Positions 5,932 through 51,915 of a DNA stretch of 64,000 nt are shown piece by piece. The position numbers were made by a program, and so were the translations under genes. The stretch's first letter is position 1. Each line of letters begins with the position of its first letter. The notes beneath the pieces were generated by a model that did not search any database, was not told the origin of the DNA, and saw only the letters and a program-made list of their open reading frames with translations. The DNA is taken from assembly GCF_012863495.1 (NCBI RefSeq), contig NZ_JAAVJL010000001.1:3219501-3283500 (forward strand), written 5' to 3'. Source of the stretch: Pseudanabaena yagii GIHE-NHR1. Its GTDB lineage: Bacteria > Cyanobacteriota > Cyanobacteriia > Pseudanabaenales > Pseudanabaenaceae.

Positions 5932-6031
5932 TACAGTGCTTTGTTCTCAAACCTAAACCAAGAAGAATTTTGAAAGCGTTGCTTTGCAACGCTTTCAAAA
6001 TTCTTCTTGGTTTGTTTGATCGGTAATTGCT
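5932..6031. repeat. Dispersed hairpin element, copy at 5.9 kb
   Basis: Left end TACAGTGCTTTG, then AAACCAAGAAG leading into a perfect 28-bp stem (5955-5982 and 5986-6013) with a TTT loop, then GTTTGATCGGTAATTGCT. The same left and right flanks surround a different but related stem at 32904-33008, showing a conserved element larger than the hairpin. It sits between divergent starts of the phosphoesterase and HDAC-like genes. Confidence 0.75.
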
Positions 6032-6081
6032 GGAGTAAGCAGTTTGATAGGGATTCTAGAGACCAAATAAATACAAAATCA

Positions 6082-6999
6082 ATGGATTTACCTTTTGTCT
6101 ATCATCCCAACTACGTCGCACCGATCGCTAATACCCATCGCTTCCCGATGGAGAAATTTCGCTTGCTTTACGAGATGCTCATTGCTGATGGAGTCGCCCG
6201 ACCCGAGCACTTTTTTCGACCAGAATTACCAGATTTAGAAATCATCGCCTCAGTCCACGATCGCCAATATGTCGAGGCATACTGGCAAGGCACACTCGAC
6301 CACAAAGCCCAACGCCGTATCGGTTTACCTTGGAGTTATGAACTTGCCTATCGGACGAGGATTGCTGTTGGTGGCACATTATTAACTGCCAGATTAGCAT
6401 TAGCTCATGGTTTAGCCTGCAACACCGCAGGGGGAACTCATCACGCATTTGCGAATTATGGTTCAGGCTTTTGTATCTTTAATGATCTGGCGATCGCTTC
6501 GCGAGTATTGCTCAATGAGGGGCTAGTCAAAAAGATATTAATTGTCGATTTGGATGTGCATCAAGGTGATGGCACGGCGCTCATTTTTCAGGATGAGCCG
6601 AATGTATTCACTTTTTCTATGCATTGCCAGATTAACTTCCCTTCCGTTAAACAAATTAGCGATCGCGATGTTCCCTTACCTGAAGGGATGGAAGATGATG
6701 CTTATTTACGCACCCTTGCCAATCATTTACCCGATTTACTGAGTGAAATTCAGCCTGATCTGGTTCTCTATGATGCAGGAGTAGATCCACATATAGGCGA
6801 TCGCTTAGGCAAATTAGCACTTACGGATTCGGGACTCTATCGGCGCGATATGCAGGTTTTAAGTACCTGTGTGTCCCAAGGTTTCCCTGTTGCCTGTGTG
6901 ATTGGTGGTGGTTACTGCGAAGATATGCGATCGCTAGTTTATCGACATTCTCTTCTACATCGCGCCGCCAGTGATGTTTATCGCCAATATCGACTATAG
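6082..6999 (+). CDS. Histone deacetylase-family (class II-like) amidohydrolase
   Basis: A 305-aa arginase/deacetylase-fold zinc enzyme. From the ATG at 6082 it shows the tandem histidines H120-H121 (AGGTHHAF), the zinc ligands D158 and H160 (DLDVHQGDG), and the third zinc Asp region (YDAGVDPHIGD). The C terminus has the GGGY motif with the transition-state Tyr (IGGGYCED). Bacterial members deacetylate acetylated lysines, polyamines or acetoin-like small molecules; the substrate here cannot be read. The earlier in-frame start at 6007 lies inside a hairpin element and is rejected. It converges with the Uma2 gene, overlapping it by 6 bp. Confidence 0.9.
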   Translation: MDLPFVYHPNYVAPIANTHRFPMEKFRLLYEMLIADGVARPEHFFRPELPDLEIIASVHDRQYVEAYWQGTLDHKAQRRIGLPWSYELAYRTRIAVGGTLLTARLALAHGLACNTAGGTHHAFANYGSGFCIFNDLAIASRVLLNEGLVKKILIVDLDVHQGDGTALIFQDEPNVFTFSMHCQINFPSVKQISDRDVPLPEGMEDDAYLRTLANHLPDLLSEIQPDLVLYDAGVDPHIGDRLGKLALTDSGLYRRDMQVLSTCVSQGFPVACVIGGGYCEDMRSLVYRHSLLHRAASDVYRQYRL

Positions 7000-7596
7000 C
7001 CCTTGCCGAAATGCTTTGAGTGCTGATTTTGGTTCTGCCATCAGTAAACAACGGGCAAGTAATTCCAAATCAAGCTGGGGTAAACATTCACTTTGGGCAA
7101 TCGCCTCATAGCCATTGTCACGTAACCGATAGAGAGAAAATTTGCCATCTTCCCAAAACCATACTTCCTTGGTGTTAAAGCGACGGTAACGCTCTAATTT
7201 GGCGACATTACCACTGGTAAAAATCACTTCAATTGCCAAATCGCGATCGCTCACTTTATTACCAAAGCAAAAAGACAAATCTGGCTCTACACTTGCGCCT
7301 TTAGCTTCTGATTCCAACGTAGCGCTACCCGTAGGAATAAAATCGATATCCATTTCTGCAAAGTAAATTCCCAACAACATCGAGAGTAAATGCACGATGA
7401 TTTCATGGGCAGCAGATGTGGTCATAATCTCGATAGTACCATCAAGATAGTTGAGATGGATATTACGTGAATCACCGATTAAAGCCGAAAGTGTCTTAAA
7501 TTCTTTCCATGAGTATCTATTCGGAAAAACAAAGTGTTGAGCTTCCGTTTTGGGCTGATCTATTTCTATAGGTTTCGTTGATTCTTGAGCAATCAC
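6994..7596 (-). CDS. Uma2-family (DUF820) restriction-endonuclease-fold protein
   Basis: A ~200-aa protein of the Uma2/DUF820 family, which is greatly expanded in cyanobacteria and has a PD-(D/E)xK nuclease fold; functions are mostly unknown. Visible are FPNRYSWKEFKTL, the core LDGTIEIMT, the catalytic-type VEPDLSF (Asp) and AIEVIFTSG (E-x-V in place of E-x-K), and the C-terminal R-Y-x-x-x-x-KEVWFWEDG. The start is set at GTG 7596, since the upstream 54 codons run through a repeat fragment at 7666-7688 and are not family-like. No Shine-Dalgarno is evident. A second family member is at 55.3 kb. Confidence 0.8.
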   Translation of the reverse strand: MIAQESTKPIEIDQPKTEAQHFVFPNRYSWKEFKTLSALIGDSRNIHLNYLDGTIEIMTTSAAHEIIVHLLSMLLGIYFAEMDIDFIPTGSATLESEAKGASVEPDLSFCFGNKVSDRDLAIEVIFTSGNVAKLERYRRFNTKEVWFWEDGKFSLYRLRDNGYEAIAQSECLPQLDLELLARCLLMAEPKSALKAFRQGL

Positions 7597-41209: not shown

Positions 41210-44200
41210 TTATCCTTCAGAAATTAACAAAAAGCGAATATGTTTCATACTCTGTTCAGCACGTAGAGACTGTACTTGCTGCGCTAGTTTAGTACTAGCA
41301 ATGATGATATCGGGCTGAGATGCGATGACATTTGCCCGTAAATCATCTTGAGGAGAAATGGTAGTAGGGACAAAGCCCTGATTTTGCAGCATTTCTACTA
41401 ATAGGCTAATCGAGACAAAGTTATCATCAACGATGAGAATCCTTTTGCCCGTAGCGGATTTGTTAGTCAATAACAAATCAACTTCTCGCAATAGAATTAC
41501 CATGTCAACGGGCTTCGTTACATAACTATCAATTCCTAAATGGAAGCCTTGATTCTTATCATCCAGCACCGACACAATAATAATAGGAATATCTAGGGTT
41601 ACGGGATCGGATTTTAGAATGGAAGCCACATCATAACCATTAATCCCCTGCATGATAATGTCGAGAGTAATCAAATCTGGACGAACTTCACGAACTTTAG
41701 AAAGGGCAGTTTGTCCATTATCAGCCTCATAGACAGTATATCCTTTAGCTTCTAGTTCCTGTCTTAGGAGACTGCGAATACTAGAATCATCATCAATCAC
41801 TAAGATTTTTTTCGATACTCCCTCAGTATTCGGCTCTTCAGATTGCCGATCAAACGTTACTCTCTTTTTGAGCTGCTCGACAAGAACCTCAAAGTTTATT
41901 GAAGGAATTGGAGCTTTGCCATCCCCTTCTGTCGTTTTCTGAATTGGCAATGTAAATGAGAAGGTACTACCTTTACCCAACTCACTTTCAACCCAAATTC
42001 TGCCGCCATGATGTTCAATGATTTCCCGCGAAATTGGTAATCCCAAACCAGTACCTTGGGGCTTATCAGTCAAGGTGTCGCCAACCTGCTTAAACTTCTC
42101 AAATACCTTAGGTTGATCGGATTCAGAAATGCCCACACCCTGATCGACAACACTAACTGTAATCGATTGGTGATCATGCTTCACGCGACAGGTGATACTG
42201 CCTTTTTCAGTAAATTTCACTGCATTGGAGATTAAGTTGATGACTACTTGAATCAATCGATCCTTATCACCATAGATATTGGGTAAATCGGTCGCAATTT
42301 CTCGGATTGGGGCTAACCCCTTTTGCTCAAACAATGCTGAAGTTGCGGAAAAAGCACGATCAATTACTTCAGTAATGGACAAGGTATCCATGTTCCATTG
42401 CATCTTCCCTGCTTCGATTTTGGCAACATCGAGGACTTCATTAATTAACTTAGTGAGTCGGGTTCCTTCTGAAACAATAATTTCAATATTTTCCGAAACT
42501 TGACGAACACTTCTCTTTACTTTCTTATCATCGGTTTGAATTAATGGGAAAATGGATTCATCTAGTTTTTTCTGAATTAATTTGGCAAAGCCTAGTACAG
42601 AAGTGAGTGGTGTGCGTAATTCATGGGATACGGTCGAGATGAAGTCTGTTTTCATGCGGTCTACTTCTTTCTCGGCTGTAATATCACGAATTAGGATGAC
42701 CGTACCGAGATAAGCTACTCCTAATGTAGATACCGCCGAGCTTTCGACTGCCACATTAGACGATCCATGATCATGCTGGACAACGTCACTACTACCAGAT
42801 ACTCTATCAATTTCCCTAAAAATTGAAGTTGCCACGGCTTTTCCTGTACGACGATCAGGCAAAGCGAACTCAGCACTAAAGACTTGTCGTGGATTTTCCC
42901 TAGTACTATTAATAATTGAGGAAATTTCTTCCGCTCTAAAGATTTCTTTATAAGTTTCTGCATTAGCGATCGCTTTACTGCTTACCCCAATCATGCCAGC
43001 GATCGCGGGGTTAAATTGAGTAATCCGATCCTCACCATCAACTACCACAAGACCATCGACCATGTTATCGATAATCGCTTTGATTTCACTAGTTCGTTGC
43101 TCGACCTTCTGCTCTAGGGTACGGCTATAGTCCGCAAGCTGTTCCCCCGAATTTTTTAGTTGCGATGTCATTTGATTAAACGCGATCGCCAAAATGCCAA
43201 TTTCATCCTCAGTCAGAACTGGTGCTTGCGAATTCAAATTACCACCCGAAACTTGGTTTGCGGCATCAGCGATCGCTAGAATTGGTTGAGAAATCCGACG
43301 GGCAATCAAGTATACTGCCGTCAATAAAATACCAGCGGAACTTAATCCAATCAGTAAGATATCCCGTGCAAGGCGATCCGCAGGCTCGAAAGCTTCTGAC
43401 TGCGATATTTCCGCTAGCAAAGCGAGATTGAGATTATCAATCCACACGAAGCTTCCCAATACAGGTACATTTTTATAGTTTCGATACAGACCTTCGCCAT
43501 CCTTACCTTGGGCGGCGGCATTAATTCCTTCGCTCTTAATATCTTTAGCAACTTCCTGATTATCGGCACCTGCCCCCGAAAGCAGAATATTTTTGGCAGC
43601 TAATCTACCTACGACATAGGTTTCACCACTATTTCCTAAACCTGTATTTTGGCGAATAATGTCATCAACACCTTGGAGATCAAGGTCAACTGCTACCACC
43701 CCAATGCGATCACCAGCTTTGTTCGATAAAGGTGCAGCAAAGGTCATTGCCCCCTTGCCTGAAATTGGGGAAATATAGAAGTTGGGAACGATCACACGCG
43801 ATTGGTCACGGGTAAAGTAGGTGGTTGTATTACCTAAGGGCTGATATTTTCCTTCCTTTTGTTTATCCGTAGAGACGATTGTAATCCCGTTATTCGTGAG
43901 AATAGAAATTTGGCGAATGTTCGGCTTGACAGATGAGACATCTGTCATAAACTTGCGTAGTGATTCAATAGCAGTTTTAAATTCTGGGGATTCACGATCT
44001 TTAGTAAAAGTAATTTCCGCGTTCACTAAGAAATCTGGCAACTGGGTCATCAAGATTACATCACGACGCTGATTGTCAACCCATTGAGTAACCTGAGATT
44101 CCTTAAGTGATGTGGCAACATCGAGACGATCAATTGCTGAGCGCCTGAGGGCATCACGACTGCGGACATTGGCACTGACAGCTACGAGTAAAACGGTCAC

Positions 44201-44266
44201 GATCGATAGAATCGAGAAATAGCCCACAAGTTGGAGCAGCAAACGTTTCTTAAATAGGTTAAACAT
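41210..44266 (-). CDS. Hybrid sensor histidine kinase with Cache, HAMP, PAS, receiver and pseudo-receiver
   Basis: A 1018-aa membrane sensor. TM1 is ~12-33, a periplasmic double-Cache domain ~38-300, TM2 ~303-325, HAMP ~326-378 and PAS ~395-530. HisKA has H548 ([13 protein letters not shown]), and HATPase follows to ~780 ([25 protein letters not shown]). A receiver at 820-935 has phospho-acceptor D869. A second receiver-like domain (942-1018) keeps the DD pair (ILIVDDN) but has Ser at the acceptor position (S991) and ends after about 77 residues, so it is a truncated pseudo-receiver. It follows a sugar-binding lipoprotein gene by 9 bp, suggesting that this protein presents the ligand to the Cache domain. 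Confidence 0.92.
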
Positions 44267-44275
44267 TTTCTATCC

Positions 44276-45652
44276 TCATTTCCACTTAGCAAAAATATCT
44301 TTAATTTGCGCGATCGCTGTGTCCGCCGCCTGTTCGGGTGTAGCATTGCCCTGAGCCACAGATTTGATAGCTTTTCCCCATATTTTGTCTGCACCAACAC
44401 CTGCATAGGCAGGATTCTGCGCTGTATAAAACGAGGTAGTGTTTTGGAATTGTTTCGTTGCTGTTAAGATGTGCGGATCTTGTGAGTCTTTGTAATAGGG
44501 ATCTTCCAATAATTTTGGCATAGTTGGGAAATATCGCCCACCTGCCCCTTTCAAATATGTCAACAAATTATTAGGTTGAATGATATGAGACAACAAACTC
44601 TTCGCCATAGCTTGATTGCTAGAGCTTGCAAAAATAACTGCCTGTTTCACCGCAACTAGATAGTTCAGGGGCTTACCACTAGGGGCAAGCGGCCATTCGG
44701 TCGTTACTAATTTTTTGTTGTAAACCACAGAGTCAAACTGTTGAGATGCAGGGATCGACAACCCCGGATTTGCGGTCATAAATGAATTCTTGCTTAGGAA
44801 AACCTGATTGTTGTCCGCATCAGTCCATTGAGTCGCTTTAGGAGGAACATACCCATTCTTATAGAATCCAGCATACTTAGTTAATGCAGCAATAATACCT
44901 TGACGGTTTTTAGGATCGTCAATTTGGAGTTGACCATTATCGTCTAGTAAATCCACACCATAGGCTTCCAGAAATTGCTCAAACATGAAAATGGTGTCGG
45001 TGTTGGTGGGATCTGGAGACATAGGTAAGCCAATCCCATAAATATCTTTTTTCCCCTTACTTCTGGCGCGATCCTGCGCTGTTTCCCAAAATTGCCAAAA
45101 GCCATCCCAATCCCTTGGAATACTCGTATCACTTAGCCCCATATCAGATAGTAAATCTCGCCAATAATGTAGTCCTGCCGCAAGCTGAGCGATTGGGACT
45201 GCGTGATAACTACGTTTATTGGTGACTCCATTTTTATAGGACACCGCTTTGAGAGCGATCGGGCTAAATAAATCTTTGACAGGTTCTACAACATCAGTTA
45301 CATCCACCAAGTTGTTCTGCCATGCTAACTTGGGATAGAGAGCAAATTCAGCAGTATTACTAAATAGGATGTCAGGAGGATTGCCGTTGTTTAGAGCATT
45401 GTCTGCATCACGATTAATTGACCCATCATTATAAAAAGTGATTTCTACTTTGGTATTATTGTTCCTCTCCCACTCAGCAACAATCTGCGAAAGTGCTTCA
45501 GTTTCCGCAGGATAAAAGCTCTGAATCCACCAGACACGAAATTTAGAATTTTTGGGTTGAGGTCGATAATTTAAGACTGTGGAATCACTACAAGCCGCCA
45601 GCCCCAAGCCTGCTAGAGATAGTGATAGTTGGTTAAACTGACGACGACGCAT
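44276..45652 (-). CDS. Extracellular solute-binding lipoprotein (family 1, sugar type)
   Basis: A 458-aa periplasmic binding protein. The N terminus MRRRQFNQLSLSLAGLGLAAC combines a twin-arginine-like RRRQF with a lipobox (LAAC, lipidated C21). The mature chain matches ABC sugar-binding proteins: FRVWWIQSFYPAETEALSQIVAEWE, NDGSINRDADNALNNGNPPDILFSN, and the C-terminal YFPTMPKLLEDP. No permease or ATPase gene is near; instead a hybrid kinase follows at 9 bp. It may thus act as a chemosensory co-receptor rather than as part of a transporter. Ligand unknown. Confidence 0.88.
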   Translation of the reverse strand: MRRRQFNQLSLSLAGLGLAACSDSTVLNYRPQPKNSKFRVWWIQSFYPAETEALSQIVAEWERNNNTKVEITFYNDGSINRDADNALNNGNPPDILFSNTAEFALYPKLAWQNNLVDVTDVVEPVKDLFSPIALKAVSYKNGVTNKRSYHAVPIAQLAAGLHYWRDLLSDMGLSDTSIPRDWDGFWQFWETAQDRARSKGKKDIYGIGLPMSPDPTNTDTIFMFEQFLEAYGVDLLDDNGQLQIDDPKNRQGIIAALTKYAGFYKNGYVPPKATQWTDADNNQVFLSKNSFMTANPGLSIPASQQFDSVVYNKKLVTTEWPLAPSGKPLNYLVAVKQAVIFASSSNQAMAKSLLSHIIQPNNLLTYLKGAGGRYFPTMPKLLEDPYYKDSQDPHILTATKQFQNTTSFYTAQNPAYAGVGADKIWGKAIKSVAQGNATPEQAADTAIAQIKDIFAKWK

Positions 45653-45714
45653 AGATTTTTAAGATTAAGGAATTAATCAAAATAGTAATTTAATAGAAAT
45701 TGATATAGGCAGAA

Positions 45715-46365
45715 CTAAGCACCACTTATAGCAGTTCCGAGATGAGTTAAGTCTGGCAAAACAACAGTTTCTGTGTCAAAAGGATAGGTTTGAGGATATT
45801 GCAACACCCTGCCTATAAATTTTACACCTGCAACGATCGCACCTTCATAATCAGCGATCGCATCGCCAACCATTAACACGCGATCGGGATTAAACCCATG
45901 ATTTGTTAAAATCTCTTGAATAATAGCGCTTTTTTTAGCAGGAGAACCATGTACAGAGACAAAATAATGGTTCATGTTACGGCGTGACACAATCCGTTTC
46001 AATTCTTCATCAGGAGTGCCAGAGGCAACAAATAGAGGAATTGATTGATAATACTTTTCGAGAAAATCATCGGCTCCTAATACATAGGGCGATGCTATTA
46101 CTGCATCTTCAACATATTGTGAGAAGCGATCGCCGAGTTGTATTTCCACTTCTTTCGTTAAGGATTTTCCTAGCAAAACTTCTTGATAATAGCGAAATTT
46201 TTCAAAGCGCGATATGCCATTATGCAAAAGATGATAGTCCATCACCTGCTGCACTATTTGCTCTCCATATTCTTGATATAGGGCAGCAAAGGCTTTAGTT
46301 TTGACATCTACTGATTCAACGATGACTCCATCAAAATCAAACACAATTGCATCATATTTTTTCAT
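45715..46365 (-). CDS. HAD-superfamily phosphatase
   Basis: A ~216-aa HAD subfamily IA hydrolase: motif I DFDGVIVESVDVK, motif II VASGTPDEEL, Lys in SPAKKSAI and motif IV MVGDAIADYEGA are intact. The cap region (AFAALYQEYGEQIVQQVMDYHLLHNGISRFEKFRYYQ) is seen in phosphatases of polysaccharide or deoxy-sugar gene clusters. ATG 46365 gives a start right before the family fold; an earlier ATG at 46389 is possible. It follows the 2-hydroxyacid dehydrogenase gene but is separated by a terminator-like hairpin. Confidence 0.85.
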   Translation of the reverse strand: MKKYDAIVFDFDGVIVESVDVKTKAFAALYQEYGEQIVQQVMDYHLLHNGISRFEKFRYYQEVLLGKSLTKEVEIQLGDRFSQYVEDAVIASPYVLGADDFLEKYYQSIPLFVASGTPDEELKRIVSRRNMNHYFVSVHGSPAKKSAIIQEILTNHGFNPDRVLMVGDAIADYEGAIVAGVKFIGRVLQYPQTYPFDTETVVLPDLTHLGTAISGA

Positions 46366-46405
46366 TACATTTCCCACAAAATTTGTCATGCAAAAATTTT
46401 CACGC

Positions 46406-46438
46406 AAAAAAGGAGAGTGCTTAGCACTCTCCTTTTTT
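46406..46438. terminator. Terminator after the 2-hydroxyacid dehydrogenase gene
   Basis: Perfect 16-bp stem (AAAAAAGGAGAGTGCT and complement) around one base, overlapping the minus-strand stop codon. The HAD gene downstream may need readthrough or its own promoter. Confidence 0.75.
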
Positions 46439-47369
46439 ATTTTGCTAAACCAAGATTTACGAGGCTATCAAACAGATTTTGAGCAGCTTCTTCTTCCATT
46501 TGCGTTCTTGCTTCCTTGGCATAGGAACCCATATGGGGAGTCAAAATGACTTGAGGCAGGCTCGCCAACTTGCCAGAGTAGGGTTCCTCTTCAAAGACAT
46601 CAAGGGCGGCTCCTGCCAAGTGTCCTGATACTAATGCATCATATAAAGCTTCTTCATCAACGATCCCGCCTCTCGAAGTATTGATTAAAATGCTACCCGC
46701 CTGCATCTTATTGATGAAGTCGCGATCGACCAAATGATCATTTTCTTTACTGTAGGGAATGTGAATTGTCACTACAGTTGACATAGCCAGAAATTCATCT
46801 AAAGATTGAATACAAACTGTATCGGCAAATAGGGAATTACCAGCAATATCATAGGCAATTCTTTTTGCTCCAAAAGTTTTCAGGAGTTGCCCCACTCGAT
46901 TGCCAACCCTTCCATAGCCTAATAAGCCTACAACTTGAGATGCTAGGAGTCTTCCCATTAATGGCTTCCATGTTCCCTCACGCAATTGGCGATCAGCTTC
47001 TGAAATCCGTCTTAATGTCGCAAGAATTAAACTCACTGCTAGTTCAGCAACCGCAATTACTGGGGCTGTAGGCGTTATGTGAACAGGGATACCCATTTCT
47101 TCAGCCGCTACTAGATCGACGCTATCAGTTCCGATCCCACATCGTGAAATAATTTTGAGAGACTTAGCAGAGGAGAGAACATTGCGTGTGATTGGTTCGA
47201 CCCCCGCAATCATACCTACAACATCATCATTGAGAAATTCTAAAAGCTCTGATTCTTTGAGCTTTCTCCCATAGGGATTCAAAACAATTTCAAATCCTTG
47301 TTGTTGCAGATTTTGTAAAATTTGATTGTTTTGCAGATCGAAAGAAGAAGTACTAATTAATAATTTCAT
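46437..47369 (-). CDS. D-isomer-specific 2-hydroxyacid dehydrogenase (phosphoglycerate-dehydrogenase-like)
   Basis: A 310-aa NAD-dependent dehydrogenase of the SerA/formate dehydrogenase family without regulatory ACT domains. Seen are SRCGIGTDSVDL, the NAD motif GLLGYGRVGNRVGQLL, catalytic Arg region INTSRGGIVDEEAL, the Glu in DVFEEEP and His in TPHMGS. It is too short for housekeeping SerA and lies in a cluster with SDR, cupin, HAD and AEC genes, so a specialised 2-hydroxyacid such as a sugar acid is likely. Confidence 0.88.
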   Translation of the reverse strand: MKLLISTSSFDLQNNQILQNLQQQGFEIVLNPYGRKLKESELLEFLNDDVVGMIAGVEPITRNVLSSAKSLKIISRCGIGTDSVDLVAAEEMGIPVHITPTAPVIAVAELAVSLILATLRRISEADRQLREGTWKPLMGRLLASQVVGLLGYGRVGNRVGQLLKTFGAKRIAYDIAGNSLFADTVCIQSLDEFLAMSTVVTIHIPYSKENDHLVDRDFINKMQAGSILINTSRGGIVDEEALYDALVSGHLAGAALDVFEEEPYSGKLASLPQVILTPHMGSYAKEARTQMEEEAAQNLFDSLVNLGLAK

Positions 47370-47575
47370 GGTTTACTTGCCTATTTTTTAACCAATTTTT
47401 TTGCACACAAAAAATACTGAAACCATGACTGCAAGTTCAAGATTATAGACAATATAAGCAAATATTTTTAAATATGTCTTAAATACATTAGATAGAAAAT
47501 TTCTTATATTTTCAATGAATTCGTTAGCCCATTTAAGATGTAATTAAATTTAAGTTCAATACATCTTCTTTGTGT
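47370..47575. other. AT-rich spacer, probable promoter region
   Basis: A 206-bp AT-rich spacer between two minus-strand genes, without a hairpin. It probably holds the promoter for the 2-hydroxyacid dehydrogenase gene; I see no sharply defined -35/-10 pair. Confidence 0.35.
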
Positions 47576-48598
47576 TTATGAAAATAGCCATAGCCAAATA
47601 GGTATGGTAAACAATAGAAGTACTACGCCAAAGGCTAAGGTTGTAACGGTCAAATCACGATCAAGGTTGTAGGCTTGAGCAATAACAAGGGTCGAAAAGG
47701 CTGGAGGCATTGCCATCTGCAAAACCATCGCTAGCCGAGGTTCTCCTGTAACTCCAAAAAACATCAATCCTGTACCCACCACTAATGGGGTGAGCAGCAT
47801 TTTGATCGATAAACAAGTGAGAGCTTTTTTGATGTTTTTGAGAGTCTGTAGTTGACTAAGCTGCATCCCAATCATGACCAGCGAGAGGGTAACAGTTGTC
47901 CATGCGATCGCATTCATCCCTGAAGTAATTACCGTTGGCAAGGGAACAAATCGCATACCAACACCGATTGGTAAACTCCATAAAGCAGGAGTCTTCGCCA
48001 TAGATACAAATGGATTTGGTCTGGGCTGGTTGTTAGCCGTGCTACCAAAACGACTTGCCAAAGCAATACCTACGGAATAGGCAGCGATCGTAGAACCAAT
48101 CAGGTCATAAAATAGCGACCATGCAAAATATTGTGGTCCCACTAGGGCAAGGCTCACGGGATATCCCATAAAAGCGGTATTCCCTAGGGTCATGGCAAGC
48201 AAAAAACTGCCTTGAGTTGGTCCTGACCATGCACTTTCTTGTTGGATAGTTGCGTTTGTCCCTGATGTTACTTCAACAGTATTTTCGCGGGATGTGATGC
48301 CTCTTGACAAAGACCGAAATCTTTCATCACTCACACCTAGATCGATCCAGATCCATGCCAAACCTGCGCCAACAAAAATTGCCACCCAAGCGGTAGTTGG
48401 CGCAATCACAATCCATCCTGATAAATCGGCTTGGCGCAAAAAGGAAACAATCCCAATGGGAACTCCCACAAATAGTAAAGCTTTGCCGAGATAGGTGGTG
48501 TAGACTCTGGGTAGGAGTTTTCCTAATACATATCCCAATAGAGTCCATCCAATTAATCTCACGTACAGCATGACGAGGGGGTTTTCTAGTGTAAACAT
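47576..48598 (-). CDS. AEC-family (auxin efflux carrier) transporter
   Basis: A 340-aa polytopic protein with about ten hydrophobic helices. It has the AEC features: GNTAFMGYPVSLALVGPQYFAWSLFYDLIGS (the conserved helix-break Pro/Asn region), ALWSLPIGVGM, and MPPAFSTLVIAQAYNLDRDLTVTTLAFG near the C terminus. Bacterial AEC proteins export or import malate, malonate or related organic acids. It is in line with the cupin-SDR genes upstream (96 bp gap), so an organic acid product or substrate of that cluster is a reasonable guess. Confidence 0.88.
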   Translation of the reverse strand: MFTLENPLVMLYVRLIGWTLLGYVLGKLLPRVYTTYLGKALLFVGVPIGIVSFLRQADLSGWIVIAPTTAWVAIFVGAGLAWIWIDLGVSDERFRSLSRGITSRENTVEVTSGTNATIQQESAWSGPTQGSFLLAMTLGNTAFMGYPVSLALVGPQYFAWSLFYDLIGSTIAAYSVGIALASRFGSTANNQPRPNPFVSMAKTPALWSLPIGVGMRFVPLPTVITSGMNAIAWTTVTLSLVMIGMQLSQLQTLKNIKKALTCLSIKMLLTPLVVGTGLMFFGVTGEPRLAMVLQMAMPPAFSTLVIAQAYNLDRDLTVTTLAFGVVLLLFTIPIWLWLFS

Positions 48599-48694
48599 AG
48601 AATTAAACGTACAAACTAAGTGTGAGAGTTGCCAAGCATACTATAGCGGTTTTCATTTCCTCTTAAGCAAAATCAAAGCCTAAAAACTGGACTA

Positions 48695-49456
48695 CTAGAA
48701 TTGTCCACCATTGACATCAACGATCGCACCCGTCATGTAGCTGGATAAATGTGATGCGAGAAATAGAATTACATTTACCTGTTCTTCCATAGAGGCAATT
48801 CTTCCCAAAGGGATGGAATCAATCAGTTTTTGTTCTGCTTCTGGTGGCAAAGTTGCTGCTAGCATTGGGGTATAGGTTTGACTGGGGCAAATTGCATTAA
48901 CATTAATTTGAAAGGGGGCTAGCTCGTAAGCAAGCTGTCTCGTAAAGCCCACGACTCCAGCCTTGGAGGCAACATAGTGAATTCCTGATATTTTGCTTCT
49001 AAAATGCCCTGCGATCGAAGAAACATTGATAATGTTGCCACTTCGTTGTTGCTTCATGATCGGTACTGCATATTTACAGCAAAGGAAAAGACTTGTGAGA
49101 TTGGTTGCTATGACTCTGTTCCAATCCTCAAGGGAAATATCTTCAATTTTAGCAATTTGATTGATTGCAGCATTGTTGATCAAGATATCAATTCGCCCAT
49201 ATCTCTCAAAAACTGAAGCGATCGCCTGTTTAACTTGAGTCTCGTCAGTAACATCGCAGGGTAGCGATAGGGCAGATTTACCTGCTGCATTCAGTTGTGA
49301 AGTGATTGCCTCTGCACCACTACGAGAAATAAATATGGTATGTGCGCCATAATTCGCGATCGCCTCTGCCACGGCTTGACCAATACCACTACTTGCACCA
49401 GTAATGATCGCTACTTTCCCCTTGAAATCTTGAGGAAATTCATGGAATTTGGTCAT
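48695..49456 (-). CDS. Short-chain dehydrogenase/reductase (FabG-like)
   Basis: A 253-aa classical SDR. Cofactor motif GASSGIGQ is at 20-27, NNAA near 95-98, and the catalytic Ser in NVSS (146-147), Y161 and K165 (Y-x3-K) are present; C-terminal MTGAIVDVNGGQF is typical. It follows the cupin gene by 14 bp on the same strand. The real FAS-II ketoreductase is not implied; substrate is probably a sugar or hydroxy acid given its company. Confidence 0.9.
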   Translation of the reverse strand: MTKFHEFPQDFKGKVAIITGASSGIGQAVAEAIANYGAHTIFISRSGAEAITSQLNAAGKSALSLPCDVTDETQVKQAIASVFERYGRIDILINNAAINQIAKIEDISLEDWNRVIATNLTSLFLCCKYAVPIMKQQRSGNIINVSSIAGHFRSKISGIHYVASKAGVVGFTRQLAYELAPFQINVNAICPSQTYTPMLAATLPPEAEQKLIDSIPLGRIASMEEQVNVILFLASHLSSYMTGAIVDVNGGQF

Positions 49457-49470
49457 GATTGCTACATCAA

Positions 49471-49920
49471 CTAATTCTTTGCAAAAACGTGATCTTCCAC
49501 AAAAATGTGATTGACATCAGGTTTACCGATCGCTAAACGAATCGATGGCTGATCGCCTACAACCCGAATATTGTGAATGACCTTGCGTGGTACAAAAACG
49601 ATGTCATCCTTTTTGGCGCGATAGGTTCCATAACCATCCACATCCCACTCTAGTTCACCTTCCATGATTACCCACCATTCATCCTCATTGGCATGATAGT
49701 GAGTGCGATTGCTTTCACCAGGTTTTTGGCAAATCATCACGGCACTCATCATATCGGTGTAAATGAGCCGCACTGACCAAGATGGTTCGCCCATCTCTTT
49801 TTTGATATCTTCTAAGCGATTGAAGATGCGATTGATGCTGCCGTGGGTATTCGCCTTGGCAACTCCATCATTTTTCATAACGCTAGCGAGGTCTTTGTCT
49901 TGTGTCACGATCGCGGTCAT
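49471..49920 (-). CDS. Cupin-domain protein
   Basis: A 149-aa single-domain cupin. The metal motif 1 is HYHANEDEWWVIMEGELEW (His-x-His-x4-Glu) and motif 2 is PRKVIHNIRV. A ~50-residue helical N terminus precedes it. First gene of the minus-strand cupin-SDR-AEC run, with a gap of about 200 bp to the porin upstream. Enzyme or sensor role is not decidable. Confidence 0.85.
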   Translation of the reverse strand: MTAIVTQDKDLASVMKNDGVAKANTHGSINRIFNRLEDIKKEMGEPSWSVRLIYTDMMSAVMICQKPGESNRTHYHANEDEWWVIMEGELEWDVDGYGTYRAKKDDIVFVPRKVIHNIRVVGDQPSIRLAIGKPDVNHIFVEDHVFAKN

Positions 49921-50088
49921 AGGTCATTACTCCATCAAGCTTTGTCTGAAACAAAATCATGAATCTAAAGATAACATGACCTTAGACTTGGTACATAGTT
50001 AGATAATTACAATCAACCTATGATACTGATCACAAAATTAAGGTCAGTTAATTTGCTAAAAACACTGCTTGGAAATAGATTTTGCAAA

Positions 50089-50115
50089 AAAAAGCACCCC
50101 ATCGGGGTGCTTTTT
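50089..50115. terminator. Terminator of the porin gene
   Basis: AAAAAGCACCCC and GGGGTGCTTTTT around ATC, 7 bp past the porin stop on the minus strand. Confidence 0.85.
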
Positions 50116-50121
50116 GATTAG

Positions 50122-51765
50122 TTAGAAAGTGAACGTTGTCCGAATTACACCAACAGTTGCGGTCGGATTAGTACTCACACCTTCAGGATTGAAGACCCAG
50201 AAAACCCCAGGAGTAATACTGATGTTTTTACTGATGCGATAGCGATAGAAAAGTTCTAAATGGTAAGGAGTCGAATTAACTGCCCCTAAAGTTGCTGCGC
50301 CACTTACAGATGTGCGATTAATAGGCTGACCAAAAAGAATGCTACCTGCACTTCCTTCGCTAAACAAGTCATTGAGGGTCAAACCAGTAATCCAACTGGT
50401 AAAGGTAGTCGATGCAGAAGCACTTACGGCATCAGCGAAAATCACCGTTCCCCAAGTATGGAATGTCAGTTTTGGAGTGATTTTCCAAGCCAAGTTACCT
50501 GCGATCGAGTTAGCACGAATAGAACCCGTAACGCCACTGATGGATTCATTACTAGTGAGTCCAGTCCCCAAAGAACTAGTACCTGTAGTAGCTCCAGACT
50601 GATGGTAAGTATTTGCGTAGGTGATTGAAGTGTCTAGATTGTCAGCAGGTTTAAATAAAAGCTGCACAAGAGCAATTGTTGATCCACCGAACAACCCTGT
50701 AGATCCACCAGGAGAAGCACTCGCAGGATCTGATGAACCATAGCCTGCCTGTAGTCTGACTTTATCTGTAATTGACCAATCAAAACCAAATAAAGAAGAT
50801 GTACCAGCAATCCGCATTAAGGGATCGAAGCGCCCAAATCTAGAGATAGATCCTTGCCCATTGCTTGCCACAGGAGAAAGCACTGTGAAGAATTCGTCAG
50901 GGAAGCTACGAGGTGCAATGTAGAAGTTTACCTTATTGTCAAATGCGGGGAATTTGTAATCAAGAAGGCTAAGAGCAAATGAGTTGTCTGTTACAACTGC
51001 ACCAGGTCCAATACGGACTGTATTTGTACCTAAAAGGTTAGCGAGACTACCAGTAGTAGAACTACTTGCAGCAACAAGATTATTACTGGTTTCTAGACGA
51101 GTTCTGAGAAGGTCTTTACCTGTAAAGCTAGTATTGAGAACCAAGCGAGTACGATTGCTTAAGGTAACGTTAGAGTTTTTAGAACCAGCAGTACCTGCTG
51201 TTGCAGAAACAATAACTTCGCCCGTGAGTTTAGTAGTAGTTGAGAATTGTTGTGCTTCTAGCTTGGTGACTTTGGCATCGAGGGCATCAACGCGACCACG
51301 CAGAGTAGCAAGTTCGGCAGCAAATTCTTCCTGTAGTTTTTTTAATGTAGCGAGATCTTCTTTGCTAACTTTGTCAGCGAGACCTGCGGAAATGATTTCA
51401 TTGATTTTATCGAGACAAGCATTTAAGCCTGCGGCAAATTCGTAACGACTGGTGGCTTGTTTGCCGCGAAAAGTGCGATCGGGATAACCAGCAATACAAC
51501 CATAACGCTCAACCAAAGATTGCAAAGCAGTAAATGCCCAATCAGTTGGTTTGATATCACTAAGTTGTGAGACTGACGTAACATTTTGAGCTGTTGTTGC
51601 TGGTTCAGTACTTGCAGTATCTAGTTGAATAGACTTGTAAGGATCATTATTTGCAAACAAAGATGTTGTATTTGTTTCTGCATGAGCCAGACTAGGAACC
51701 ATGGATAAGGTTGTCAAGAAAGACAAACAACCTATACTGACAACGGATTTTCTAACTTTAAGCAT
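50122..51765 (-). CDS. SLH-domain outer-membrane porin (cyanobacterial iron-uptake/OprB type)
   Basis: A 547-aa outer-membrane protein. From ATG 51765: signal peptide (residues 1-30, cleavage after AHA), then an SLH domain (~60-115: SQLSDIKPTDWAFTALQSL ... GCIAGYPDRTFRGKQATSRYEFAAGLNA) that binds peptidoglycan. A coiled coil (~125-165, LKKLQEEFAAELATLRGRVDALDAKVTKLE) and a beta-barrel ending in a C-terminal Phe (TTFTF) follow. This is the standard cyanobacterial porin layout. Whether it passes iron, inorganic ions or sugars cannot be read. The GAGGG upstream supports the chosen start. Confidence 0.92.
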   Translation of the reverse strand: MLKVRKSVVSIGCLSFLTTLSMVPSLAHAETNTTSLFANNDPYKSIQLDTASTEPATTAQNVTSVSQLSDIKPTDWAFTALQSLVERYGCIAGYPDRTFRGKQATSRYEFAAGLNACLDKINEIISAGLADKVSKEDLATLKKLQEEFAAELATLRGRVDALDAKVTKLEAQQFSTTTKLTGEVIVSATAGTAGSKNSNVTLSNRTRLVLNTSFTGKDLLRTRLETSNNLVAASSSTTGSLANLLGTNTVRIGPGAVVTDNSFALSLLDYKFPAFDNKVNFYIAPRSFPDEFFTVLSPVASNGQGSISRFGRFDPLMRIAGTSSLFGFDWSITDKVRLQAGYGSSDPASASPGGSTGLFGGSTIALVQLLFKPADNLDTSITYANTYHQSGATTGTSSLGTGLTSNESISGVTGSIRANSIAGNLAWKITPKLTFHTWGTVIFADAVSASASTTFTSWITGLTLNDLFSEGSAGSILFGQPINRTSVSGAATLGAVNSTPYHLELFYRYRISKNISITPGVFWVFNPEGVSTNPTATVGVIRTTFTF

Positions 51766-51915
51766 TCTAAAATTACCCTCTTCATACACCTAGCTTATAA
51801 GGTTAAACTTGTTAGCCTTGGATGTCAAAAGAATATTTGGCTGATATTTTATAAAATCGCCCAATCAACACCCAAATCATTTAATGAGTATTGAATTTAA
51901 TCTAAGTAAAATTCC

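Follow-up and report, generated by a model that had tools for sequence, protein, structure and literature searches.

In the genome of the cyanobacterium Pseudanabaena yagii GIHE-NHR1 (G000, contig C1), a stretch of 64,000 nucleotides, hereafter the window, carries five intact, co-oriented minus-strand genes in the order cupin, SDR, AEC transporter, D-2-hydroxyacid dehydrogenase (DH) and HAD phosphatase. Within Pseudanabaena these five genes act as a unit, judged by their block-wise presence and absence; beyond the genus the five-gene set does not recur, and only two pairs drawn from it, cupin-SDR and DH-HAD, do. The simplest account is that two pairs of acid-sugar-type enzymes have been joined with an AEC transporter, such that a free acid would leave (or enter) the cell. 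The five genes, together with a hairpin that lies between the last two, are as follows.

49471..49920, minus strand: cupin, 149 aa, Pfam Cupin_2 (1.9e-14)
48695..49456, minus strand: SDR (classical), 253 aa, Pfam adh_short_C2 (2e-64)
47576..48598, minus strand: AEC / Mem_trans transporter, 340 aa, Pfam PF03547 (Mem_trans, 6.2e-17)
46437..47369, minus strand: D-2-hydroxyacid dehydrogenase, 310 aa, Pfam 2-Hacid_dh_C (2.4e-53)
45715..46365, minus strand: HAD phosphatase, 216 aa in its ATG form, Pfam HAD_2 (1.5e-17)
46406..46438, no strand assigned (the scan gives the plus strand): near-symmetric, terminator-like hairpin between DH and HAD

A preliminary description of this DNA had proposed just these five genes, and all were recovered at their places with Pfam matches, the start of the HAD being corrected to the ATG at 46365. 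This ATG is the likelier start because the TTG listed for the gene (46407) sits inside the terminator-like hairpin. The same description knew of no pathway with this set of genes, and in the open-licence literature we likewise found nothing that describes the set or its partners.

The evidence for a unit comes from the genus itself, whose name here rests on 14 named loci, 11 of them titled Pseudanabaena, one Phormidium tenue and two uncultured cyanobacterium; these overlap in part with the 26 genus genomes that were searched. The cupin, 89–97% identical across the 14 loci, was found in 20 of the 26 genus genomes and in none of 12 further genomes from the same family, and a wider search returned it from three of 244 phylum genomes (its own genome counted), two of the three being Pseudanabaena. 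When the DNA of window positions 44300–51700 was compared with the same 26 genomes, all five genes were matched in 19 of them, and all but the HAD in G274, a genome that is 76% complete; these counts are among the matches listed. None of the five genes was among the matches listed for the six cupin-less genomes, four of which had a partial porin as their best listed match. The best matches in G259 and G263 (3.0e-90 and 3.8e-90) were weaker than the matches listed, and faint remnants are possible there; in G259, profile searches detected neither DH nor HAD.

Cupin, SDR, AEC and DH follow one another in that order at all 14 named loci, with no internal stop within the matched stretches of any, and at 12 of them DH is followed by HAD, then a solute-binding protein, then a histidine kinase. 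The two exceptions are L026, where the sequence stops just past DH, and L034, which carries other genes across the 4.8 kb after DH (L034:11592-16438; the genes are unrelated, with no HAD or solute-binding protein across that stretch). Gene order alone is nevertheless weak evidence, because the flanking fabF and glutaminase genes are also syntenic (10 of 14 loci), and block-wise presence is the better evidence for a unit. That the five genes have separate roles and are merely held together by the ordinary synteny of the genus could appeal to fabF and glutaminase, as well as to the AEC family being of a common cyanobacterial kind that occurs elsewhere without the other cluster genes: it is present at E ≤ 1e-40 in 44 of 194 phylum genomes, two of them Pseudanabaena, and none of the other cluster genes was found within ~1.5 kb of its relatives at 10 of 10 loci from other genomes. 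Presence and absence as a block, and the recurrence of both the DH-HAD and the cupin-SDR pair beyond the genus, make this explanation quite improbable. The gene-neighbourhood check for co-occurrence that the preliminary description had suggested thus came out in favour of the cluster inside the genus and, outside it, in favour of the two pairs only.

The DH is the enzyme about which most can be said. It lacks a regulatory domain and has a GxGxxG motif (GYGRVG...AYD) with Asp174, the conserved Asp of the betaB-alphaD loop that goes with NAD specificity. The closest PDB chain by sequence is 1wwk, a phosphoglycerate dehydrogenase which PMC6303947 assigns to type IIIH; that paper also describes, for SerA enzymes, an invariant phosphate-binding Arg within an Arg-Ser motif in the beta3-alpha3 loop. 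The window DH and 1wwk share the fold family, a similar length and the Asp for NAD, but where the type IIIH enzyme has its Arg-Ser phosphate motif the alignment places the Ala-Gly of a different signature, [IV]AG[VT]E. On account of this replacement the DH subfamily is, by the Arg-Ser criterion, not SerA, and the label 'PGDH-like' given to it earlier does not amount to a functional assignment. Since the SerA-invariant motif is absent, a phosphorylated substrate for the DH is not indicated either; of the earlier guess that the five genes together handle a phosphorylated hydroxy or sugar acid, the idea of a joint unit holds for the genus. The NCBIfam phosphoglycerate dehydrogenase equivalog model, 525 positions long, gives the DH 231.7 bits over residues 16–304 against a cut-off of 454; this shortfall is weak evidence, since so short an enzyme, of type III, would scarcely attain the cut-off.

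The signature is found in the window DH and in 24 of 26 related loci, namely all 14 genus loci, L043, L050 (Acuticoccus, which reads VAG), L082 and seven of nine viral loci. The two loci without it, both viral and both with no partner gene detected, are L057, which has the canonical Arg-Ser, and L063, which has neither. Among these sequences [IV]AG[VT]E marks the DHs that have partner genes of the HAD or cytidylyltransferase type.

How firmly DH and HAD are paired outside Pseudanabaena was assessed in two ways. Protein queries taken from the window, run against the 244 phylum genomes, found DH (E ≤ 1e-65) in three and HAD (E ≤ 1e-18) in six, with both in three genomes (G000, G193 and G150) and the two genes neighbours in all three. 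Profile searches of 372 genomes found DH (E ≤ 1e-75) in five and HAD (E ≤ 1e-30) in seven, with both in four and within 1.5 kb of each other in all four. A naive hypergeometric calculation puts this co-occurrence at 2e-7, a value which is indicative only, as three of the four genomes belong to one genus and the profiles themselves include the window and G150 rows; taken in that sense, DH and HAD co-occur beyond chance.

Neighbouring DH and HAD genes (up to 1.5 kb apart) were seen in Pseudanabaena, in G150, on an Acuticoccus plasmid and on a viral contig. In G150 (L043), which belongs to another class, DH is followed by an epimerase, a Cyclase and the HAD, with a CTP_transf_3 gene 1.1 kb further on, and is preceded by an open reading frame (ORF) that resembles a cupin and scores below the Pfam cut-off (18.6 versus 27.2 bits). 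In the fifth DH genome, G032, a gene of the inositol-monophosphatase family adjoins DH and there is no HAD of the window kind; at L082:6156-7920 an [IV]AG[VT]E-type DH stands beside a gene of that family in place of the HAD. The further HAD genomes G155, G103 and G165, whose HADs are 30–33% identical, all have CTP_transf_3 and an HMGL-like gene, with HpcH/HpaI in addition in G155. The set of HMGL-like, CTP_transf_3 and HAD genes was located in three cyanobacterial genomes, at L083:4103-7854, L084:4251-7423 and L085:7036-10064, and it adjoins ABC_tran and ABC2_membrane genes in L083 and, by eye, look-alikes of these in L084.

Among plasmids, DH and HAD both find their best match on Acuticoccus NZ_CP094833.1 (L050), at 48% and 43%, and the two genes adjoin each other there. 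The DH on this plasmid bears a phosphoglycerate dehydrogenase annotation, and the plasmid also carries an HpcH/HpaI aldolase, CTP_transf_3 and an epimerase. Azospirillum sp. B510 (L052:7457-9645) has a member of this HAD subfamily whose gene shares 4 bases with that of a malonyl-CoA synthase, with no DH. Relatives of the DH also occur in nine viral contigs. In L056 the DH overlaps the HAD by a few bases (5989–7529; 43% and 41% identical to those of the window) and NeuB lies 4.5 kb upstream (734–1534), possibly a phage-borne acid-sugar module. In L058, L059, L060, L061 and L064 a relative of cytidylyltransferases precedes DH, accompanied in L061 and L064 by an HpcH/HpaI relative, and no partner gene was detected in L057, L062 (which starts 287 bases ahead of the DH match) or L063. 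As L058–L060 resemble each other, and likewise L061, L062 and L064, there are few independent viral cases. The cytidylyltransferase and DH genes at L060:5252-7084 and L061:4109-7231 come before small DFDG-bearing ORFs that have no Pfam match.

The HAD itself shows the features of its family: a DFDG nucleophile motif (DxDG), the Lys, GDAIAD (GDxxxD) and a helical cap after motif I, as expected for HAD_2. Its relatives adjoin cytidylyltransferases, which places it with HADs of the glycan-cluster type and bears out the earlier view of it as a phosphatase of deoxy-sugar clusters. An AlphaFold2 model (predicted local distance difference test, pLDDT, 84) retrieved many C1-cap-type phosphatases in a fold search, with N-acetylneuraminate phosphatase NANP (2gfh) at rank 5 and phosphoglycolate phosphatases beside it, matches too mixed to assign a substrate; compared with a viral structure library, the model gave generic HAD-type matches only.

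A photorespiratory or metabolite-repair route, in which the HAD would be a phosphoglycolate phosphatase, the DH a hydroxypyruvate/glyoxylate reductase and the AEC a glycolate exporter, would draw on some of the same comparisons. The HAD is weakly similar to the NCBIfam phosphoglycolate phosphatase equivalog (8.3e-11), falling well short of its cut-off (41.8 versus 225 bits), phosphoglycolate phosphatases are among its fold matches, and the DH resembles the glycerate dehydrogenase/glyoxylate reductase 2cuk. Photorespiration is, however, general in cyanobacteria, whereas the cupin was found in 20 of the 26 genus genomes and in none of the 12 others of the family, and such a route leaves both cupin and SDR unexplained. 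We regard it as very improbable.

For the other pair, the window cupin fits the metal-binding cupin motif G(X)5HXH(X)3-4E(X)6G with its motif 1, GESNRTHYHANEDEWWVIMEG, at residues 68–88, and has a relaxed motif 2. The SDR carries TGASSGIG and YVASK and, at E ≤ 1e-55, was found in only G000 and G193 of 194 phylum genomes, both Pseudanabaena; among the best 25 of 237 models it reached no equivalog cut-off, and two broad subfamily models passed. Outside the genus the pair was found once, in G209 (L006), where the two genes are 44% and 42% identical to those of the window and are followed by CTP_transf_3, in a surface-glycan locus whose other genes include NTP_transferase, nucleotide-sugar dehydratase and Wzz. 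In Campylobacter PtmA/PtmB, an SDR gene lies beside that of the CMP-legionaminate synthetase (CMP, cytidine monophosphate). L006 is like this arrangement in that its SDR also adjoins a NeuA-family enzyme, and the Pseudanabaena cluster differs from it in having no NeuA-family gene. Two other cupin matches, one on a plasmid (L055, 39% over 77 residues) and a weak one in Thorarchaeota (L039, 46% over 51 residues), had no partner genes and were set aside; searches for cupin relatives gave no match in phages and none that was confirmed in viral contigs.

We tentatively favour, at somewhat less than even confidence, the reading that acid-sugar-type enzymes work here with a widespread type of cyanobacterial AEC transporter in producing a free hydroxy or keto acid and exporting it, the substrates, order of steps, direction of export and product being those that we infer. 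The HAD would dephosphorylate a small sugar-acid phosphate, the DH would interconvert the 2-keto and 2-hydroxy forms using NAD(H), cupin and SDR would isomerize, oxidize or reduce the same skeleton at another carbon, and the AEC would export the free, rather than nucleotide-activated, acid. In favour of this we count the block presence in the genus, the matched stretches free of internal stops at all 14 named loci, the occurrence of both pairs in glycan-type loci, the [IV]AG[VT]E signature of the DHs with partners of that kind and the fold match of the HAD to NANP, an acid-sugar phosphatase. To these we add that a search of the window's genome for CTP_transf_3 (PF02348) at E ≤ 0.001 gave no match, as against matches in 11 of 14 control genomes.

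Several observations weigh against it. Intergenic distances in the window are 14 nt between cupin and SDR, 96 between SDR and AEC, 206 between AEC and DH and 71 between DH and HAD, and the 96 and 206 nt that flank the AEC, along with the hairpin ahead of the HAD, weaken the claim of a single operon. (Among the 12 HAD-bearing genus loci, the DH-HAD gap is 20–50 nt without a comparable stem in eight and 67–83 nt in four, of which only L025, L027 and L029 have such a stem; a promoter and terminator scan of the region found 11 and 4 sites against 15.4 and 5.5 in shuffles, with no excess of either.) Phosphoglycolate phosphatases and beta-phosphoglucomutases score like NANP in the fold search, and the HAD fold matches are thus generic; the role proposed for the cupin is conjectural and its predicted structure poor (pLDDT 53). 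Neither the DH genomes (E ≤ 1e-65) nor the HAD genomes (E ≤ 1e-18) include G209, which has the cupin-SDR pair, presuming that the cupin count used the same draw of 244 genomes, and the two pairs therefore need not belong to one pathway. At plasmid loci with the HAD (19 records matched), no DH was found in four of the five examined. Among the Pfam families of nucleotidyltransferases, the search of the window's genome covered PF02348 only. Finally, neither the substrate nor the direction of the AEC transporter appears to be predictable from its family membership. The preliminary description had called it an exporter of organic-acid type: the family label stands (PF03547, 61.7 bits against a gathering score of 25.7), and transport of an organic acid out of the cell is putative.

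The relatives of both pairs accompany cytidylyltransferases, and the cluster might accordingly be thought to make a surface-glycan precursor as its relatives do, with the activating nucleotidyltransferase encoded elsewhere. Strong matches to PF02348 (E ≤ 1e-20) occur in nine of the 20 cluster-bearing and two of the six cluster-less genus genomes; since the family has no match in the window's genome and no strong one in 11 of the 20 cluster-bearing genomes, the cluster does not depend on CTP_transf_3, and CMP-activation of this type is, on the sequence searches, not supported in the window's genome. No glycosyltransferase was found among the scanned genes near the cluster. A precursor pathway of this kind is thus rather improbable. 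The acid-sugar (ulosonic-acid-like) activation modules, composed of NeuB or an aldolase, a HAD phosphatase and CTP_transf_3, do hold relatives of the window HAD and DH subfamilies, but the Pseudanabaena cluster differs from them in having no aldolase, NeuB or cytidylyltransferase and in carrying an AEC transporter. The absence of an aldolase or NeuB-type synthase applies to the cluster genes, the remaining genome not having been searched for these.

Another likeness is to the phosphinothricin system, in which PhpE is a 2-hydroxyacid dehydrogenase. PhpF forms CMP-5'-phosphonoformate, as a passage of PMC8976061 describes. This system pairs a dehydrogenase with a cytidylyltransferase by phosphonate logic. 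Phosphoenolpyruvate (PEP) mutase TIGR02320 matched none of the 26 genus genomes, a result with a weak positive control (six of 14 control genomes match below the cut-off and none above it). Phosphonate synthesis was rejected on this absence, given that control.

Around the five genes lie three further syntenic neighbours.

50122..51789, minus strand: OprB / SomB-type porin, upstream of the cupin, identified by family matches
44276..45652, minus strand: SBP_bac_8 solute-binding lipoprotein, Pfam PF13416 (2.4e-22)
41210..44266, minus strand: dCache-HAMP-PAS hybrid histidine kinase, identified by domain matches

The lipoprotein gene lies 9 nt ahead of the kinase gene (window 41210–45652), in the same order as in 12 of the 14 genus loci, and the two may possibly form a binding-protein-assisted sensor. 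These neighbours would fit a pathway of uptake and breakdown. A sugar acid from outside would be bound or sensed with the help of the porin, the solute-binding protein and the dCache kinase and taken in by the AEC, after which SDR, DH, HAD and cupin would channel it into central metabolism. The porin precedes the cupin at 12 of the 14 genus loci, the solute-binding protein and kinase are conserved at as many, and the solute-binding protein is weakly similar to carbohydrate ATP-binding cassette (ABC) binding proteins. Yet neither an ABC permease nor a sugar kinase nor an aldolase was found in the cluster genes and scanned neighbours (the other genes of the window were not scanned), and relatives of the enzymes outside the genus lie largely in glycan-type loci. 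Uptake and breakdown is therefore unlikely.

A further proposal, which we consider doubtful, is that Pseudanabaena has an undescribed pathway in which acid-sugar chemistry, as a rule devoted to CMP-activated surface glycans, is diverted towards a free hydroxy or keto acid that the cell secretes as a signal, as a metal ligand or as overflow. The pathway would use a new DH subfamily, marked by [IV]AG[VT]E and partnered by phosphatases in bacteria, plasmids and phages. The cluster defines a testable accessory pathway for a common freshwater cyanobacterial genus. It also draws attention to a subfamily of 2-hydroxyacid dehydrogenases, located in glycan-type loci of bacteria and in viral contigs, that is annotated as phosphoglycerate dehydrogenase despite having no SerA phosphate motif. 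Once found, the substrate of this DH would set such annotations right and could bring a new acid sugar to light.

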